DNA from: Chloroflexota bacterium
GTDB lineage: Bacteria > Chloroflexota > Dehalococcoidia > Bin125
Length of the DNA stretch: 34,086 nucleotides
Reading direction: 5' to 3'
NCBI GenBank assembly: GCA_009838915.1
Contig: VXQT01000018.1
Location: forward strand, 1 to 34,086
Part shown: piece after piece, positions 1,424 through 17,989 of the stretch
Layout: every line of letters begins with the position of its first letter
Numbering within the stretch: the stretch's first letter is position 1
Program-made: the position numbers and the translations under genes
The notes under the pieces: model-generated
What the model saw: the letters and a program-made list of their open reading frames with translations, nothing else
Databases searched by the model: none
What the model was told of the DNA's origin: nothing

Positions 1424-4279
1424 TCAACTGACAAATCTGGCGTCAGGCGGGCGGGCCTTGCCGCCGTGTACCGACGGCTCGGCGCACCACTTGGCGGCGA
1501 GGCGGCGGACGCCCTCGTAGACCGACTCGTCGAAATCGAGCAGGTCGCAGATCACGCGGCGGTCGAGCAGAGCGCGGTTGGGATCGGCATCGGCGAGGTA
1601 TGCCGGCTGAAGATCGCGCTCACGGAAGTCGTCGAAGATGTCCTCGGCGGTTGCCAGTTGGTCGTCGCTGAGCTCGCGAAAGTCGAGGATCGGAAGCGAC
1701 TCGGCTGTCCTGACTGTCGTTCGAGCCTTGCTGGACTGCTGCCTAGTGGAATGCCACCAATAGCTCAGCAATCCCAAGCTGGAGTTGCCCCAGACGGTCA
1801 GTGAGTAGTCGAATCGCGGATCTCTGAACCTCACGTTCGGCCAGACACTTCCGCCGATGGAAGCGCCTTCGGTGAAGGCAATCAGTAGGGCTTGAGCGCC
1901 AAAGGTGAATTCTTGATTCAAGTGTGCACGGCTCGCAGTGGACCACACCTGAGCTGCCTCAGTCTCCCTACCAACTCTTGGTTGCAGTTGTGAATCCGGC
2001 ACACACAAGATTCTCGTCTCATTCTTGTGATTGTGGTTCCAGAGCGATGGGTACGTGGCTGTCGGACTCGGTGGCAGCTTCTCGAAGGGCGCCTTGGCGC
2101 CGGCAATGTTGATGTGGTGCATCCCGCGTGTACCCAGGCTGTCGAGCCGCGCAACCGGAAGGCGAAGCGACTTGGAAGAGCCAGGGAGAGATAGCTGCGA
2201 ATGGTTTAGCGCGTATGCAGATTGAGCAACCGCATAGTCCAGGACGCGTACTGCTCCCCAGCCGTCGACGTGCCTGCCAATCGGAGTAGTGATAGATTCG
2301 CCCGACCTGTCATCTCCAACGACAATCGCCGTTCCGCCGTACGGGCCATCTTCCAGAGTGCGCACTGGCTCAGTTGCAACGATGTGTTTGGCAATGGCGT
2401 CGGCGTCGGCAAAGCTGGGCGGACGCTGATGCAACGACGTGAAGTGCACCCGCTCGCTGTGGCTGACATCTGAGTCTTTGCGTCGTCGCGCCACGACCAG
2501 GCACTCCGCCATGCCCGTGTCGGAGCTGAATGACATGTCATCGCCGTTGGCGGCAATGCTGACCACCGTCGCGTCGGTGTAGTCATTAGCCAGGAGTGTT
2601 CGCACCCCCTGCCACGACACGCCGTTGGCAATGGACAGCGGCAACACGAGGGCGAGCACACCCCCGGGCCGGAGCTTCTTGTTCGCAAGTGCGACGAAGG
2701 CCGACGCGATACCGGCGTAGCCGTGGTAGCAAGTGTCCTTGGAGTAGCGACTGAGAATGGCAGACATGTCCTTTTGCGTACCCAGCGTCGTGCCCAGTCC
2801 TCGGAAGTGCTTCACATAGTCGGACTCCCGTGCAGGTCCCTCCCAGTCTGACCCGGCGCGGGTGAACGGCGGATTCATGATCACGAGGTCAAAGCCCCCA
2901 TCGGGAATCTCGACGGCCACCTGCGCTGCCGTCATCTCACCTTCGCTGCCAGTCTGCAGCGCGGGATCGCTGGTGTTGAACAGGGTGAGCAGGTTTGAGG
3001 CCTTGAGCAGTTCGAGCGAGCCGATCTGGACGCTGCCGTCTTCCTGGCGCCCATAGGGCATGGTGTAGAGGCGCGACTGCTGGTAGCCGATGTCGGGCTG
3101 CACGCCAGCGAGCGTCGCGCCAGTGATGTGCACCGCCGAGGGCATCACGTCGCAGCCGTAGAGCACTTGCTCCATCATCGGCGCGTGCAGTTCGGCCGGG
3201 TCGCCGCCGGCGCGCTCGTGGCGGGCCGCGATCTGCTCGTAAGCGGCGGACAGCAATGCGCCGGTGCCGCAGGCGAAGTCGCCGACGCGGAGCCTGGGGA
3301 CCGCTTCGGGATCCGACCAATCGACGCCCTCCAGCTTGGCGACCGCCAGCCGCGCCAACAGGGCCGCCGACGCGGGCCGCGTGTAGAAACTCGCGAGGTA
3401 CTTGCGGTCGGAGATCAGGCGCTGGAAGATGCGGCCCGTCAGGTCGCGAGCGTTGTCGACGCCCGCGGCGTCGACCTCCTGCGCAGTGTCGCGCAGGACA
3501 TCGAGGATCTGCTTGGCGGCTCCGGCCGGGAGTTGGCGCAGCAGATCGCGGGCGATGGCGAAGATGGGAAAGTAGTTGATCTTGAGGATTGCGTCCCAGG
3601 CGGTCAGGGTCTTGAACTGGGGATTGGAGACATCGGGGCCGCAGACTTGCAGCAGCGGGTTGATGCCCTCGTGCATCCCGGTGATTCGCTCGTGGAAGAT
3701 CAACGCGTTGGCGATGATTGCGCAGGCCATGCGCCGCGTCTGCGGCACGTTGCGCATGCCCAACATGTCGGCCACCGAGCGAACCACATGCCGCTGCGTC
3801 TCGGCCATGTCGTCGAGAACGACTGCGGCTCGTTCGATTCCTGTCTGTAGCGAATCGGCTGCCTGGTCAACGGCCTTCTGAGGGACCGAGACGAGGCGAG
3901 TCAGATCAGCGAGGTCGTCGAGCCTACCTTCGAGCCACCCAGACACCGGAAAGCGCAGATGGTTGTCGTCTTTGTCGCGTTCGTCGTAGAGAACGCAATA
4001 GGAGAACGTCGCACCTCGCAGCGCTGATTCGAGGTCGTCGGCTGTCTTGAGCTCAGGCGGATAGCGCAGCGCGATGGCGGCTTCGACGGGTCGCGGTTGA
4101 TCGACGATTCTCTTGCCCAGCCGGCCCATAGCGTCGGCTTCGCCGGTGTTCGGCAGGAACTCGGCCTCGACTGCGACGGGCGAGCGTCCGGCGGCGGTGA
4201 TCAGGTTGTCGATCTGGGCGCCGTGCTGTCCGACGATCAGGCCGGTGTGCTCGGAGCGCACGAGGCAGGTCCGCATCAT
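1424..4279 (-). CDS. N6-adenine DNA methyltransferase, type IIG-like, with nuclease-like N-terminus
   Basis: This 951-residue protein carries the gamma-class N6-adenine methyltransferase motifs in order: motif X 'FYTRPA' at ~298-303, motif I 'DFACGTGALL' at ~334-343 (S-adenosylmethionine binding), and motif IV 'NPPF' at ~469-472 (catalysis). The C-terminal ~350 residues lack these motifs and probably form the target-recognition part. Near the N-terminus, D24 and E38-x-E40 within 'QIDNLI...VAVEAEF' resemble a PD-(D/E)xK nuclease core with Glu in place of Lys. If this is right, it is a single-chain restriction-modification enzyme. The start is uncertain. ATG 4279 has only a weak ribosome-binding site, and the reading frame continues upstream for 15 plausible codons to an in-frame TAG at 4325-4327. 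No helicase or partner subunit is adjacent. Confidence 0.8.
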   Translation of the reverse strand: MMRTCLVRSEHTGLIVGQHGAQIDNLITAAGRSPVAVEAEFLPNTGEADAMGRLGKRIVDQPRPVEAAIALRYPPELKTADDLESALRGATFSYCVLYDERDKDDNHLRFPVSGWLEGRLDDLADLTRLVSVPQKAVDQAADSLQTGIERAAVVLDDMAETQRHVVRSVADMLGMRNVPQTRRMACAIIANALIFHERITGMHEGINPLLQVCGPDVSNPQFKTLTAWDAILKINYFPIFAIARDLLRQLPAGAAKQILDVLRDTAQEVDAAGVDNARDLTGRIFQRLISDRKYLASFYTRPASAALLARLAVAKLEGVDWSDPEAVPRLRVGDFACGTGALLSAAYEQIAARHERAGGDPAELHAPMMEQVLYGCDVMPSAVHITGATLAGVQPDIGYQQSRLYTMPYGRQEDGSVQIGSLELLKASNLLTLFNTSDPALQTGSEGEMTAAQVAVEIPDGGFDLVIMNPPFTRAGSDWEGPARESDYVKHFRGLGTTLGTQKDMSAILSRYSKDTCYHGYAGIASAFVALANKKLRPGGVLALVLPLSIANGVSWQGVRTLLANDYTDATVVSIAANGDDMSFSSDTGMAECLVVARRRKDSDVSHSERVHFTSLHQRPPSFADADAIAKHIVATEPVRTLEDGPYGGTAIVVGDDRSGESITTPIGRHVDGWGAVRVLDYAVAQSAYALNHSQLSLPGSSKSLRLPVARLDSLGTRGMHHINIAGAKAPFEKLPPSPTATYPSLWNHNHKNETRILCVPDSQLQPRVGRETEAAQVWSTASRAHLNQEFTFGAQALLIAFTEGASIGGSVWPNVRFRDPRFDYSLTVWGNSSLGLLSYWWHSTRQQSSKARTTVRTAESLPILDFRELSDDQLATAEDIFDDFRERDLQPAYLADADPNRALLDRRVICDLLDFDESVYEGVRRLAAKWCAEPSVHGGKARPPDARFVS

Positions 4280-13322: not shown

Positions 13323-14456
13323 TTAGTAGACGCGAGGCACGATCCGCCACGGCACGCGCTGCTGGTATTCGGCCCACTTCTCGGGGCCGTACTTCTCGGC
13401 GCAGGCGCGGTCGTCCTCGATCTGCCTCCAGGTGAACATCGTCACGACGAAGATCATGTAGCTCCAGGCCCAGGGATTTCCGAAGTGGCCGAAGCTGAGC
13501 GCGATCGCCAGGCCGAACAGGCCCTCGCCAAAGTAGTTGAAGTGACGCGCCGCGCCCCAGAAGCCGCTGCACAGGATCTTGCGGTTTCCGGCCTCAATGA
13601 CCTCCGGCTCGAACCACAGGAACTTGCGATCGGGCCATCGCTTGAACCAGTACTTCTGCAGACTCGCCCCCCGCGAAATCGTCCAACCGGTCAGGAACAG
13701 CGCCGCCGCGCCGCCGACGATTGCGTACTCGGCCGCCGCCGAGAAGCCCGGGTCCGGCTGGTTGGCCATCGCCCATAACGGAAGGATGAACAGCCAGCCG
13801 TAGACCACCAGCCCGCCCCAGAACAGCTTGAAGCCTGTGTTCTCGTGAATCAGGTCGTAGGTGTAGAGCTGCACCCGCTCCCAGATGAAGTAATCGGTGA
13901 TGTAGAAGGTGTAGATGCCTGCGTAGAGAAAGACGCCGAGATTCGCGTCGGCGAAGTTCTCATGGTGCCAGACCGCCCCGGACAGCGCGTTCAGCGACAA
14001 CATCGCCCCGCCGACGACGTAGAACCACATCTTGACGTCGAAGTACTCGTTGAAGAACGAGAACTCTTGCTTGCGTCCGAGATAGAACGCGATGATCGGG
14101 TTCTTCACCTCGCCCTGAGGCTGGCCGAACACGGCGATCAGAGAGAAGATGACGGTGAAGACCGTCCCCCCGAAGACCGCCCAGAGCGACGAGCGGTAGA
14201 ACCAGTCGCGCGGCATCCCCGTGGCTTCAGTGGCCCAGATGATCACCATGATCGCGAAGACCAGGAGCCCATTGAGGCGGTAGCTGCGGGGCTGCCCGGT
14301 CTCGGCATTGGTGACGTACCCGGTCACCGTGCGCGCCGCTAAGGCGATCTGAGCGACCGCGAACGCCGCAAAGATGATTAACGGAGTGAAGAACGCGAGG
14401 ATCTTCTCCTCCGCCGTGAGGTCGAACAGGTGCTCAATGCCCAGCGATTCAATCAC
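13323..14456 (-). CDS. ERG4/ERG24-family membrane reductase (sterol C14/C24-reductase-like)
   Basis: This 377-residue integral membrane protein matches the ERG4/ERG24 sterol reductase family. Diagnostic parts are 'YRLNGL' (59-64), 'FYLGRKQEF' (124-132), 'FDVKMW' (139-144), 'CSGFWGAARHFNYFGE' (296-311), and the C-terminal 'DDRACAEKYGPEKWAEYQQR' followed by VPWRIVPRVY. The last two regions bind NADPH and the substrate in characterised relatives. About eight to ten hydrophobic segments are visible. The start is GTG 14456, six bases after a strong GAGGGGAG. Members reduce double bonds of sterols, but bacterial relatives may act on other polycyclic or isoprenoid lipids. It is divergent from a P450 gene, which supports a lipid-modifying role. 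Confidence 0.87.
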   Translation of the reverse strand: MIESLGIEHLFDLTAEEKILAFFTPLIIFAAFAVAQIALAARTVTGYVTNAETGQPRSYRLNGLLVFAIMVIIWATEATGMPRDWFYRSSLWAVFGGTVFTVIFSLIAVFGQPQGEVKNPIIAFYLGRKQEFSFFNEYFDVKMWFYVVGGAMLSLNALSGAVWHHENFADANLGVFLYAGIYTFYITDYFIWERVQLYTYDLIHENTGFKLFWGGLVVYGWLFILPLWAMANQPDPGFSAAAEYAIVGGAAALFLTGWTISRGASLQKYWFKRWPDRKFLWFEPEVIEAGNRKILCSGFWGAARHFNYFGEGLFGLAIALSFGHFGNPWAWSYMIFVVTMFTWRQIEDDRACAEKYGPEKWAEYQQRVPWRIVPRVY

Positions 14457-14528
14457 GTTCCGCTCCCCTCAGAGTGAGTTGGCGCCATTATCGGGGATTC
14501 AGATTGCGAGCATCGCGACTCGCACGTT

Positions 14529-14555
14529 CCCCTCCTCCCCCCGCTCAGCGGGAGG
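14529..14555. repeat. degenerate R2-like palindrome, possible copy
   Basis: CCTCCTCCCCCCGC-TCA-GCGGGAGG forms a short stem (five perfect pairs next to the loop, then bulged pairs). It shares the CTCCCCCCGC core of family R2 but lacks the TGCCTTCGGCA segment. It lies in the divergent promoter region between the ERG4/ERG24-like gene and the P450 gene. Confidence 0.4.
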
Positions 14556-14637
14556 CGGTTGACGGAAGCGGGTATCGCCGTGAGCGACATAGAATGCGGC
14601 CACACGTCGCCATCCGTGCAGCACAGAGGAGTCGGTC

Positions 14638-15897
14638 ATGGCGCTCAGCGACTTCAACCCAATCGACCCCGAGACGCTCGAGTGCCCTTACCCCTACTAC
14701 GCGGCGTTGCACGCCGAGGCACCGGTGTACCCAGAGCCAGAGCTCGGCGTCACCATCGTGAGCGGTTACGACCTGCTGCAGGAAGTCGTCCACGATCCCG
14801 AGACCTACTCGTCAGCGATGGCAGTGGGCGGCGCGGCCCTGCCCGGCCGCGCGCGGGCCGAACCCGACGAAGAGCTTGCCCAGTTGCGACGCACCTTTGG
14901 ACGGGCGAGCATCCCCACATTGCTGGCGGCTGATCCGCCCTACCACCGCCGCTACCGTTCGCTGGTTGAGAAGGCGCTCGCCCCGCGCCGCGTGATGGGC
15001 ATGGAAGGCTACGTCCGCGAGATCGTCACCGATCTGATCGACGGATTCATCGACGATGGCAAAGTCAACTTCACCAGGCAGTTCGCCGACGAACTGCCGA
15101 TGGCTGTAATCGCCGACCAGATCGGCGTGCCCCGCTCCGACCTCAAGGAGTTCAAGCGCCGCGCCGACTTCGCCATCGGCGGTCTCGAGCGCAGGATTCC
15201 CCCGGATGAGGAGCGCGCGATCCTCAAGGCCGGGATCGAGCTACAGGAGTTCTTTCTCGAGCGCGCCGAGGAGCGGCGCCGCAATCCGCAGGACGACATC
15301 CTGACCACACTGGCAACGGCGGAACTGGAGACCGACGACGGCTCGCGACCGCTCCACGATGCGGAGATCCTGAGCATCCTGCAACAGCTCCAGGTCGCGG
15401 GCAAGGAGACGACCGCGCACTTGATCGGCAGCGCCATGCTGCTGTTCATCGAGAACCCGGACCAGCTCGCTGCCGTTCAGGCCGATCCGTCGCTGATCGG
15501 CAACATGGCCGAGGAAGCGCTGCGGGTGGAGTCGCCCGTCCGCGCCCTCTTCCGCACGACGACGAGGCCGGTCACGCTCGGCGGCGTTGAGCTGGAAGCG
15601 GGCGCGCGGCTGATGCTGCTCTACTCGGCCGCCAACCGCGATGAGTGCGCCTTCGCGAATGCAGCCCAGTTCGATGTCAGCCGCGAGAACGCGCCGCGTC
15701 ATGTCGCGTTCAGCGCCGGGCCGCACTATTGCATCGGCGCAGCGCTCGCCCGGCTGGAAATTCGGGTTGCCTTCGAGGAAGTGCTGGCTCGGATGACCAA
15801 CTTCCGGCTCGATCCTGCCCACCCCGCTCCGAGCCACGTGCCCAGCTTCATCCTGCGCGGCCTCAACGACCTGCACATCCTCTTCGATCGGGCGTAA
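14638..15897 (+). CDS. cytochrome P450 (bacterial class I type)
   Basis: This 419-residue soluble P450 has the I-helix oxygen-activation motif 'AGKETT' at 254-259, where the acidic residue is Glu257. It also has the K-helix E293-A-L-R296 and the heme-binding loop 'FSAGPHYCIGAALAR' with axial Cys365. There is no membrane anchor. Such enzymes take electrons from a ferredoxin and reductase, neither of which is in the window. The ATG at 14638 follows AGGAG at a normal distance. The 130-residue gene starts seven bases after its stop codon. Hydroxylation of a hydrophobic compound is expected. The neighbouring ERG4/ERG24-like and Rieske genes suggest a terpenoid or sterol-like substrate, which is inference. 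Confidence 0.95.
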   Translation: MALSDFNPIDPETLECPYPYYAALHAEAPVYPEPELGVTIVSGYDLLQEVVHDPETYSSAMAVGGAALPGRARAEPDEELAQLRRTFGRASIPTLLAADPPYHRRYRSLVEKALAPRRVMGMEGYVREIVTDLIDGFIDDGKVNFTRQFADELPMAVIADQIGVPRSDLKEFKRRADFAIGGLERRIPPDEERAILKAGIELQEFFLERAEERRRNPQDDILTTLATAELETDDGSRPLHDAEILSILQQLQVAGKETTAHLIGSAMLLFIENPDQLAAVQADPSLIGNMAEEALRVESPVRALFRTTTRPVTLGGVELEAGARLMLLYSAANRDECAFANAAQFDVSRENAPRHVAFSAGPHYCIGAALARLEIRVAFEEVLARMTNFRLDPAHPAPSHVPSFILRGLNDLHILFDRA

Positions 15898-16300: not shown

Positions 16301-17989
16301 TTAGCTCTCGTCGTAGGCCACCCACCTGTCGTAGAGGTCGTGGAAGTGGCGAATCTTGCCCTCCTCATAGGCGGCCAGGTAGATAAAGGGATTGACCTTC
16401 GCCTTGAGCCCCTTCTGGATCTTGGGCAGGTTGTAGCTGTCTTGGTTGAGCACGCGGGCCAGGCCGCCCATCTCGGGCGCCTCGGTCCAGTGATCGTCCG
16501 GGCCCAGCCAGTGGATCGGCGCGGCCGGCGGCTTGGGCTGGTCCTCCGGCCAGGGCGAGAGGTACATCACCTCCATGATCGACATCTCGGGGTCGTCGCC
16601 GTAGGGGCGGAACCGGTAGACGATCCGGCTGAACGATCCCCAGGGATGAAAATTGGGGAAGAGGTTGTTGTACTGCCCGTCGATCAACTCGGCGTCGCAG
16701 TAGATATCGACCCGGTCACCGATCACATCGCGCAGACTCTCGCGCATCATGTCGGCCATTTTGTTGCGCGACTCGGACAGCTCCTCGCGCGGCGGGTGGA
16801 TGTCCAGGTGCGGGCTGGTCCGCACCGCCAGCGTGACGGCCCGCGACCAGTTGTCGAACGAGTCGTACTGGTGATTGGCGCCGTCGCCGCCGTAGATCAT
16901 CAGTTGCGGATGCGTGGCGATGATGTGGTAGCCCTCCATGAAGGCCTCCTGGTTCACCTTCCAGTTGGCCCGCACGATCTTGGCCACGTGCATCTGCTTG
17001 TACTTGATCTCGTAGTCGTACTTCTCGTAGTGCGCCGGCAAGGAGCCGAGGAAGTCCTCGAACGGCTCGGCCTCGGGATCCGGATTGATAAAGACGAACC
17101 CGCCCCAGGTGCCGACCCGCGCCTCCGGCAACTGTCCCACGTCCTCACGCACCTCGGGAAAATCCCACTCCGAGGGAATCTCGCGCAACGAGCCGTCCAG
17201 CTCCCAGCACCAGCCGTGGAAGGGGCAGCGGAACTCGGTCGCCTGCTTGCCGTCGAATTCTCGTAACTGGCGCCCGCGGTGCAGGCAGGCGTTGTTGTAG
17301 GCCTTGAACTCGGCCGCGCCGGTGCGCACCACGATCCAGGAGAGATGGGCGACGTCATAGACGATGTAGTCGCCGATCTCGGGGATGTCGTCCACGTGGC
17401 AGGCCATTTGCCAGACCCGCTTCCAGAGCCGCTCAACCTCGAGGTCGTGCCACTTCCGGCTGTAGTAGCGCTCGGTCGGCACCCTGCGTACCCCGCCCGG
17501 CTGCGAGCGCTCCATGCGCAGGGTCTCGGGGATGCGCTCCGGGTACTGGTCCAACTCCAACAGTTCGAGGAAGGAGATACCGGTCGAGCGCACGCCGTCC
17601 GCTGTCTCGCGGCCAGGGTCGCCCCGGTAGCGGGTGAACGACTCGTCGAGCTCTCCGTCCCTGGACATACCGCCTGAGTAAGACGCCTCCGCCGCCATGG
17701 CGTTGTCGAGCGTGCTGCGGGCGCGATAGCCGCCGCGACGAATGATGCCCGGATCGCCCGCTTCGCTCTTGTCTTCCGCTGGCTCCTTCCGGCTCCTGGA
17801 CGGCCGCGGCGGCAGTTCCGGACCGCCGACCCACTGCAACAGGTGCGGATCGGCGTGTTTCAGGTCTCCCTCGAGATAGTGGCCTTCCCAGTCGAAGATG
17901 CCGTACTTCTGCGCCTTGTCGACACGGACTTTGCCCTCGCCGAGCTCGGTGTACGTCGCGCCGCTCAGTGGATGCACTTCCGTCTTCAT
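16301..17989 (-). CDS. Rieske non-heme iron oxygenase alpha subunit with long N-terminal extension
   Basis: This 562-residue protein has a Rieske [2Fe-2S] site, C235-x-H237 ('CLHRG') and C255-x-x-H258 ('CPFHGW'), followed by the catalytic mononuclear-iron motif 'EGYHIIATH' with His355 and His360. It is therefore an aromatic-ring-hydroxylating or demethylating oxygenase. Typical alpha subunits are ~420-460 residues with the Rieske Cys near residue 80-100. Here ~150 extra residues precede the oxygenase, with a conserved-looking block at 1-56 ('YGIFDWEGHYLEGDL') and a Pro/Arg/Ser linker. No beta subunit, ferredoxin or reductase is nearby. GAGGAG seven bases before ATG 17989 supports this start, so the extension is probably translated. 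Confidence 0.92.
   Translation of the reverse strand: MKTEVHPLSGATYTELGEGKVRVDKAQKYGIFDWEGHYLEGDLKHADPHLLQWVGGPELPPRPSRSRKEPAEDKSEAGDPGIIRRGGYRARSTLDNAMAAEASYSGGMSRDGELDESFTRYRGDPGRETADGVRSTGISFLELLELDQYPERIPETLRMERSQPGGVRRVPTERYYSRKWHDLEVERLWKRVWQMACHVDDIPEIGDYIVYDVAHLSWIVVRTGAAEFKAYNNACLHRGRQLREFDGKQATEFRCPFHGWCWELDGSLREIPSEWDFPEVREDVGQLPEARVGTWGGFVFINPDPEAEPFEDFLGSLPAHYEKYDYEIKYKQMHVAKIVRANWKVNQEAFMEGYHIIATHPQLMIYGGDGANHQYDSFDNWSRAVTLAVRTSPHLDIHPPREELSESRNKMADMMRESLRDVIGDRVDIYCDAELIDGQYNNLFPNFHPWGSFSRIVYRFRPYGDDPEMSIMEVMYLSPWPEDQPKPPAAPIHWLGPDDHWTEAPEMGGLARVLNQDSYNLPKIQKGLKAKVNPFIYLAAYEEGKIRHFHDLYDRWVAYDES

Follow-up and report, generated by a model that had tools for sequence, protein, structure and literature searches.

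A horizontally transferred ERG4/ERG24-family reductase co-occurs with Sterol_MT_C-domain proteins in bacteria

Among reductases of the ERG4/ERG24 family, fungal ERG4 reduces the product of C24 methylation. MaSR1, a bacterial member, is the delta-14 sterol reductase of Methylotuvimicrobium alcaliphilum (structure 4QUV); its Tyr241 and Asp363 are catalytic (PMC12489058) and its N359 and R395 lie in the NADPH pocket (PMC4951196). Sponge symbionts encode a C14 reductase of the same family within a sterol cluster (TM7SF2/ERG24 of PMC9531527; MsbC of PMC7074536), and sponge-associated chlamydiae have sterol reductases annotated as KEGG K00223/K00213 and K09828, possibly acquired by transfer (PMC9666466). 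We analyzed a 34,086-nucleotide stretch of a Chloroflexota genome (contig VXQT01000018.1; the whole stretch is called the window) and, within it, an ERG4/ERG24-family protein with the working name RED. The distribution of RED is independent of the sterol cyclase, the gene has been transferred horizontally between unrelated bacterial phyla, and it co-occurs with genes for the Sterol_MT_C domain, to which it is linked in two phyla. The chlamydial enzymes resemble RED in their link to sponges. Yeast ERG4 and the Coxiella sterol C24 reductase, reportedly of the same family as RED, are likened to it by a proposed common logic, a reduction that would follow C24 methylation or act on a host sterol.

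RED and the positions in it that bear on its function are the following, with TM7 standing for transmembrane helix 7.

13323..14456, minus strand: RED, ERG4/ERG24-family membrane sterol reductase, 377 amino acids, GTG start (PF01222, 4QUV, AlphaFold)
13902..13904, minus strand: codon of Tyr185, counterpart of catalytic Tyr241 of MaSR1 (4QUV) by alignment
13767..13820, minus strand: TM7 sterol-channel segment, residues 213-230, divergent by alignment with MaSR1
13524..13526, minus strand: codon of Glu311, counterpart of catalytic Asp363 of MaSR1 by alignment
13365..13547, minus strand: C-terminal NADPH-site region, residues 304-364 (R304, H305, N307, Y308, R344, D348, K355, Y356, Y364)

The original prediction had assigned this protein to the sterol reductases on two motifs, both of which we find in RED (GFWGAARHFNYFGE; EKYGPEKWAEYQQRVPWRI), and the assignment holds. 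PF01222 (ERG4_ERG24) matches residues 27-377 (E 4e-29, 102.1 bits, cut-off 27); DUF1295 (PF06966) also matches residues 207-368 (24.3 bits, cut-off 20.4), and none of the NCBIfam models matches RED. The best solved relative found by phmmer is 4QUV (E 1.6e-33), followed by the 592-residue chain of 9L5R, named delta-14-sterol reductase (E 3e-14). An AlphaFold model of RED built from 53 rows (pLDDT 92.1, pTM 0.89) has 4QUV as its top solved match in Foldseek (E 1e-17, TM score 0.80) and superposes on it with a Z score of 35.8 and a root-mean-square deviation of 2.8 over 351 residues at 28% identity. Steroid 5-alpha-reductases reach a Z score of 12-13 only, and isoprenylcysteine methyltransferases 11.4 and 11.0, so that the fold comparison speaks against an isoprenylcysteine or phospholipid methyltransferase, a placement that would have refuted the original prediction. 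A candidate relative from the literature, 8,14-Bsr (PMC13277303), was rejected; it is an NTF2-family protein and belongs to another family.

We next mapped residues between RED and MaSR1 through the phmmer alignment with 4QUV, and counted them over 94 RED rows, 12 rows of the cluster C14 reductase (10 distinct genes) and 2 rows of canonical ERG4-like proteins. RED shares with MaSR1 the whole-length fold, the catalytic tyrosine (Tyr185, Y in 94/94 RED rows) and the NADPH-pocket residues (Asn307 for Asn359, Arg344 for Arg395). K268, R304, H305, Y308, R344, D348, K355, Y356 and Y364 are invariant in all 94 RED rows and N307 is present in 92; the NADPH-binding residues, whose loss would have counted against the original prediction, are kept in both comparisons. 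RED differs from MaSR1 at Asp363 of the NYxGD motif, replaced by Glu311 (Glu in 94/94 RED rows and 12/12 cluster C14 reductase rows), at R323, replaced by Lys, and in TM7, where D271, P276 and Q282 become G215, G220 and P226. The channel-helix Asp and Pro of C14 reductases (WGD...P) are both present in 12/12 cluster C14 reductase rows, whereas position 215 of the RED rows is Gly in 86, Cys in 4, Ala in 3 and Asp in 1, and position 220 is Gly in 94/94. Nor does RED carry the TM7 motif of canonical ERG4-like proteins (FWNLAGVPFVYC in regions L215 and L224), which is drawn from the two canonical rows only. Read from this alignment, the reductive machinery of RED is preserved and its sterol channel altered, and the altered channel helix would be compatible with any new regiochemistry. 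Overall, RED has the fold and the residues of an NADPH-dependent integral-membrane reductase of the ERG4/ERG24 family, with a sterol as its predicted substrate.

The source genome (G000; 2.87 Mb, 95% complete) carries a sterol cluster on contig C12, and the window is contig C25. Its closest named relatives, a Chloroflexota bin at 97% and a Dehalococcoidia bin at 93%, place it in the Chloroflexota and probably in the Dehalococcoidia. Contig C12 encodes an SdmB-like protein (NF052578, 300 bits) and an SdmA-like protein (NF052579, 406 bits), each below the curated cut-off of 600, and a separate ERG4/ERG24 protein (240 bits), the cluster C14 reductase, placed between the SdmA-like gene and a P450 that is CYP51-like by position alone, no CYP51 model having matched it. 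A 1158-amino-acid open reading frame (ORF) on this contig (L005 12904-16380) joins squalene epoxidase (PF08491) and cyclase domains in one frame, with matches to TIGR01787 at 503 bits (cut-off 322.7) and to TIGR03463 at 740 bits (below its 851). Nine other genomes of the genus have open frames of 1146-1283 amino acids at the cyclase match, which suggests that they carry the same fusion. We dropped the fused gene as a novelty, since it is already published as MsbE (PMC7074536) and as 'fused SMO/OSC' (PMC10070321); the C12 gene set, too, is known: a Melophlus symbiont has it as its msbABCDE locus (PMC7074536), and Ircinia symbionts have it in their steroid gene clusters (PMC9531527). The original prediction had noted that the window holds neither squalene epoxidase nor oxidosqualene cyclase, which stands for the 30 ORFs, part of those in the window, that we searched with Pfam; the absence does not extend to the genome, where the search it proposed finds both in the single reading frame on C12. 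A squalene-hopene-class cyclase in the same genome (G000:C13:71423-72376, L003), taken with the sterol cluster, indicates that this bacterium may make both hopanoids and sterols.

RED, about 30% identical to the cluster C14 reductase, is a second paralogue, and in the source genome it stands outside the operon of C14 reductase, CYP51-like P450 and cyclase. Across the 15 genomes of the window's genus (G000-G014), 13 have sterol-cluster genes and 12 a strong cyclase match; G002 has SdmA-like, SdmB-like and C14 reductase genes, and the stretch beyond reads N. RED is present in 10 of the 13 genomes with cluster genes (the G003 copy being a match of 85 residues on a short piece of contig) and in 0 of the 2 without. 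In G002 it lies at the cluster edge, about 1.3 kb past the SdmB-like gene and separated from it by a single gene (L034). This association, together with common family membership, is what one would expect if RED were a second C14 reductase of the genome's own sterol pathway. We consider that very unlikely: a dedicated C14 reductase already adjoins the CYP51-like P450, the channel-helix Asp kept in all cluster C14 reductase rows is lost in 93/94 RED rows, and most RED carriers have no strong cyclase.

This last point comes from 50 RED carriers searched with TIGR03463, taking at least 700 bits as a strong cyclase match. Strong matches occur in 14 carriers, none reaching the curated 851, and 12 of the 14 lie in open frames of 1144-1416 amino acids, probably the fused gene. 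In the other 36, the matches are weak or of the squalene-hopene class, or there is no match. All four carriers that are single-contig chromosomes (G078, G086, G095 and G109) lack a strong cyclase match, and in G095 the cyclase model finds no match at all. Co-occurrence with a delta-14-forming pathway is thus not seen in 36/50 carriers by the cyclase measure, CYP51 not having been searched genome-wide, and RED is unlikely to be a C14 reductase in most carriers. RED also differs from MaSR1 in having no CYP51 linkage in most genomes, and from the cluster enzyme, with its SdmA-CYP51 setting and partly shared genomes, in occurring without the cyclase. In G068, the cyclase match (L145, G068:C81) and the C14 reductase match (G068:C21:10202-11200) each contain one in-frame TAG, and RED (L225) contains none.

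RED is instead accompanied by Sterol_MT_C (PF08498), which matches in 49/56 RED carriers and in 29 of the 35 without a strong cyclase (one of the 29, G091, has a partial match only), including all four single-contig chromosomes. Among 400 Chloroflexota genomes, 24 have both RED and PF08498, two RED only (G185, G223), one PF08498 only (G207) and 373 neither, and the two fall in the same six genera, six of six. The corresponding figures for 395 Nitrospirota genomes are six with both, one with RED only (G104), two with PF08498 only (G666, G692) and 386 with neither. Fisher tests give 3.6e-35 for Chloroflexota and 3.8e-11 for Nitrospirota, values overstated by genome kinship; the safer statement is that the association holds in both phyla and in six of six genera. 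Such company is what an ERG4-type reductase would be expected to keep if the predicted activity of these methyltransferases is correct. Those that we read fall in two classes, SMT-A with a YEYGWG-type motif, which is typical of sterol methyltransferases, and SMT-B with a FMVFGWGESLHF-type motif, and those scanned carry PF08498 and a methyltransferase domain. The two genes can also be linked: in genus g91 (Chloroflexota), 10 genomes carry RED, and 8 of them have a PF08498 gene at a distance of 5.4-8.8 kb from it.

Based on these data, we propose that RED pairs with a sterol C24-methyltransferase, and not with CYP51, to reduce the alkylated side chain of largely host sterols, a proposal in which belief and doubt are for us evenly balanced. 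The methyltransferase would alkylate the sterol side chain and create a new double bond, and RED would most likely reduce the double bond left by alkylation, so that the pair would be the bacterial analogue of ERG6 and the ERG4 step after it. Most carriers tested lack a strong cyclase match, and there the substrate would be a sterol obtained from the sponge or from fellow symbionts; RED could also use home-made sterol in the window's genus, whose members mostly have a sterol cluster of their own. We infer the sterol substrate, its host origin, the action of the methyltransferase on sterols and the bond reduced by RED alike. The original prediction had offered modification of a polycyclic lipid or breakdown of an environmental sterol; modification of an environmental sterol is a plausible option, and the genome's own sterol cluster and C14 reductase qualify that prediction.

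To describe the distribution of RED, we scanned contigs with profile A1 (11 RED rows), which gave 230 relatives. The best 80 of the 230, at 64-97% identity, are complete or almost complete in length and carry 11 phylum labels taken from submitters' titles: Chloroflexota 33, Actinomycetota 11, Acidobacteriota 8, Nitrospirota 5, Pseudomonadota 5, Gemmatimonadota 4, Binatota 4, Nitrospinota 4, Myxococcota 2, Thermodesulfobacteriota (Dadabacteria) 2 and Latescibacterota 1, with one unlabelled. At least 43 of these 80 records have a sponge origin supported by papers or titles: 29 with codes RHO, COS, APA and IRC, which we matched to sponge species of PMC8163846, 13 with jk18x, the code of Ircinia bins in PMC9531527, and one that says Spongia. 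The remaining 37 are outside this count. The family is sharply bounded, the best A1 match reaching at least 634 bits in 26 of the 400 Chloroflexota genomes and at most 134 in the rest (C14 reductases, then weak partial matches), and at least 686 bits in 7 of the 395 Nitrospirota genomes and at most 140 in the others.

We next compared two of the single-contig chromosomes, G078 (Nitrospirales, OX638327) and G086 (Dehalococcoidia, OX638324), against a background of 73 reciprocal best hits from 40 stretches of 20 kb per genome (median identity 36.4%, maximum 65.4%). RED is 75.7% identical and SMT-B 67.4% identical between the two, each above all 73 background pairs, and a KshA-type Rieske protein is 62.2% identical, far above the median but below the maximum. 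Tests on the RED tree are mixed as proof of transfer. Acidobacteriota as one clade was rejected (p 0.030), whereas Gemmatimonadota (p 0.155), Actinomycetota (p 0.066) and Chloroflexota (p 0.963) were not; the tree with Chloroflexota held together was better by 51 log units, so that the free tree was not optimal. The case for transfer therefore rests on identity against the sampled background, on patchy occurrence and on changing neighborhoods.

In four regions, L208-L210 of g91 and L212 of Dadabacteria, RED stands with SMT-B, a KshA-type Rieske protein and an MMPL transporter. L208 (Chloroflexota G315) reads MMPL (named by homology to the scanned L210 protein), SMT-B, GPP34-P450 fusion, KshA_C Rieske, amine-oxidase-like flavoprotein, RED and RED; L212 (Dadabacteria G095) reads RED, MMPL, KshA_C Rieske and SMT-B, in an order different from that of L208, with a distance of 4.2 kb between RED and SMT-B. 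A sterol-sensing-domain match is found in 5/6 scanned MMPL proteins (L210, L213, L214, L222 and L223, not L212), and the island transporter would possibly move the substrate sterol. No RED was found within the 18-20 kb read around SMT-B and Rieske genes in L213, L214, L216, L221, L222 and L223. Adjacency of methyltransferase and RED in Nitrospinota G080, and perhaps G107, was considered and rejected: the methyltransferase contigs L213 (267,426 bases) and L214 (59,720 bases) differ from the RED contigs L082 (142,937) and L126 (53,517). In different phyla, a GPP34 (Golgi phosphoprotein 3) N-terminal domain is fused to a P450 near SMT-B, at these positions.

L208, 6205-8232: GPP34-P450 fusion
L214, 13706-15865: GPP34-P450 fusion
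L222, 5987-8005: GPP34-P450 fusion

From this gene content we tentatively suggest, at somewhat less than even odds, that a mobile kit for sterol remodelling is common to sponge symbionts from many phyla and would take up host sterols and then alkylate, reduce and oxidize them without de novo synthesis. With a similar reserve, we would count as its parts SMT-B, RED, MMPL (usually with a sterol-sensing-domain match), the KshA-type Rieske protein, the GPP34-P450 fusion and the amine-oxidase-like flavoprotein. The KshA_C Rieske gene of the island could also mean that RED channels host sterols into the catabolic 9,10-seco pathway, and genes for steroid degradation, divergent KshA among them, abound in the metagenomes of sponges (PMC5790920). 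We regard this as improbable, since a side-chain-alkylating methyltransferase is unexpected in degradation and sponge degraders are mainly Proteobacteria and Actinobacteria in that study. Among the 80 RED records, by contrast, 64 bear some other phylum label or none. It would take still more for the substrate to be another isoprenoid lipid, an idea that fits the divergent substrate helix of RED and the squalene-hopene-class cyclase match of many carriers. Characterized members of the family act on sterols, the partner genes are sterol-related by domain, and G095 has RED with no cyclase match of any kind, which together leave this idea highly improbable.

Several observations weigh against side-chain reduction of host sterols by RED and its methyltransferase partner. 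Six of the 35 carriers without a strong cyclase have no PF08498 match, and the completeness of the 50 genomes searched for the cyclase is not given. NCBIfam sterol-methyltransferase models match none of the methyltransferases, their best matches being other methyltransferases far below cut-off, so that methyltransferase activity is predicted from PF08498. Island genes flank RED in only 8 of 104 loci (flanks up to 6 kb in 80 and about 1.5 kb in 24, the latter including L170, a C14 reductase), and these come from two lineages, six from one Chloroflexota lineage and two from Dadabacteria; in the source genome, RED, SMT-A, SMT-B and the KshA-type Rieske gene lie on four contigs. The co-occurrence of RED with the methyltransferase could reflect sponge life and not a shared pathway. 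Finally, G151 and G185 carry, besides RED, a canonical ERG4_ERG24 protein, longer than RED and with another TM7 motif, so that RED is not simply a missing ERG4. The canonical proteins are located as follows; the one in L215 adjoins a methyltransferase and a KshA-type Rieske gene.

L215, 8553-9929: canonical ERG4_ERG24-like protein (421 bits)
L224, 9236-10573: canonical ERG4_ERG24-like protein

These two genomes raise the likelihood that RED reduces a ring double bond, for example in turning host delta-5/delta-7 sterols into stanols, with the methyltransferase co-occurring as a fellow sterol gene useful in sponges. The family includes ring reductases of C14 and C7, the altered sterol-channel helix suits any new regiochemistry, and the KshA-type Rieske protein and P450 of the island suggest ring chemistry too. 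RED nevertheless tracks Sterol_MT_C nearly one to one in two phyla, and we judge ring reduction rather unlikely, though still a serious possibility. Side-chain reduction is favored by the Sterol_MT_C companion of RED and by the precedent of fungal ERG4.

If such a shared kit exists, host and bacteria would together produce some of the unusual alkylated sponge sterols, precursors of sterane biomarkers among them, and bacteria with RED may remodel sponge sterols even where their own synthesis is impossible. The maker of these sterols is described as open, and the question bears on whether 24-isopropylcholestane can be read as a biomarker of early animals (PMC10070321, PMC9531527). Symbiont methyltransferases make 24-isopropyl sterols (PMC10070321), and steroid genes are often scattered or in doublets (PMC9531527), which may include unrecognized RED copies. 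The papers in our search dealt with individual methyltransferases and with bacteria that have a sterol cluster. Finding a reductase alongside a methyltransferase where a strong cyclase match is lacking predicts bacterial remodelling of host sterols and names the genes. Our literature search, which did not extend to subscription papers and preprints, found neither the island nor another, cluster-independent family of reductases described.

In the window, RED is accompanied by two further genes of interest.

14638-15897, plus strand: P450 ORF, transcribed divergently from RED (PF00067, E 4.9e-25)
16301-17989: Rieske/Ring_hydroxyl_A protein (Pfam scan)

The divergent arrangement of RED (13323-14456, minus strand) and the P450 (14638-15897, plus strand) is as originally described. 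The suggestion that the P450 and the Rieske protein act as companions of RED did not survive comparison of 80 orthologous loci with flanks of up to 6 kb: both adjoin the reductase in 1/80, namely L055 of G010, from the same genus, and we rejected them as partners. Across the 80 loci there is no generally conserved neighbor, and RED usually stands alone. A KatG-like protein (catalase-peroxidase, named by eye) lies near RED in eight loci of three phyla (L067, L072, L073, L096, L109, L110, L116 and L129), a weak signal that may be hitch-hiking or chance. RED itself occurs in tandem, in two or three copies, in 10/80 loci (L118 with three copies, L125, L099, L106, L107, L109, L111, L116, L121 and L123), which suggests that the copies have different substrates. 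Elsewhere in the window, a 951-amino-acid protein at 1424-4279 has an Eco57I-type methylase match (30 bits, cut-off 25.3), and a DUF5343 protein lies near it at 195-1046.

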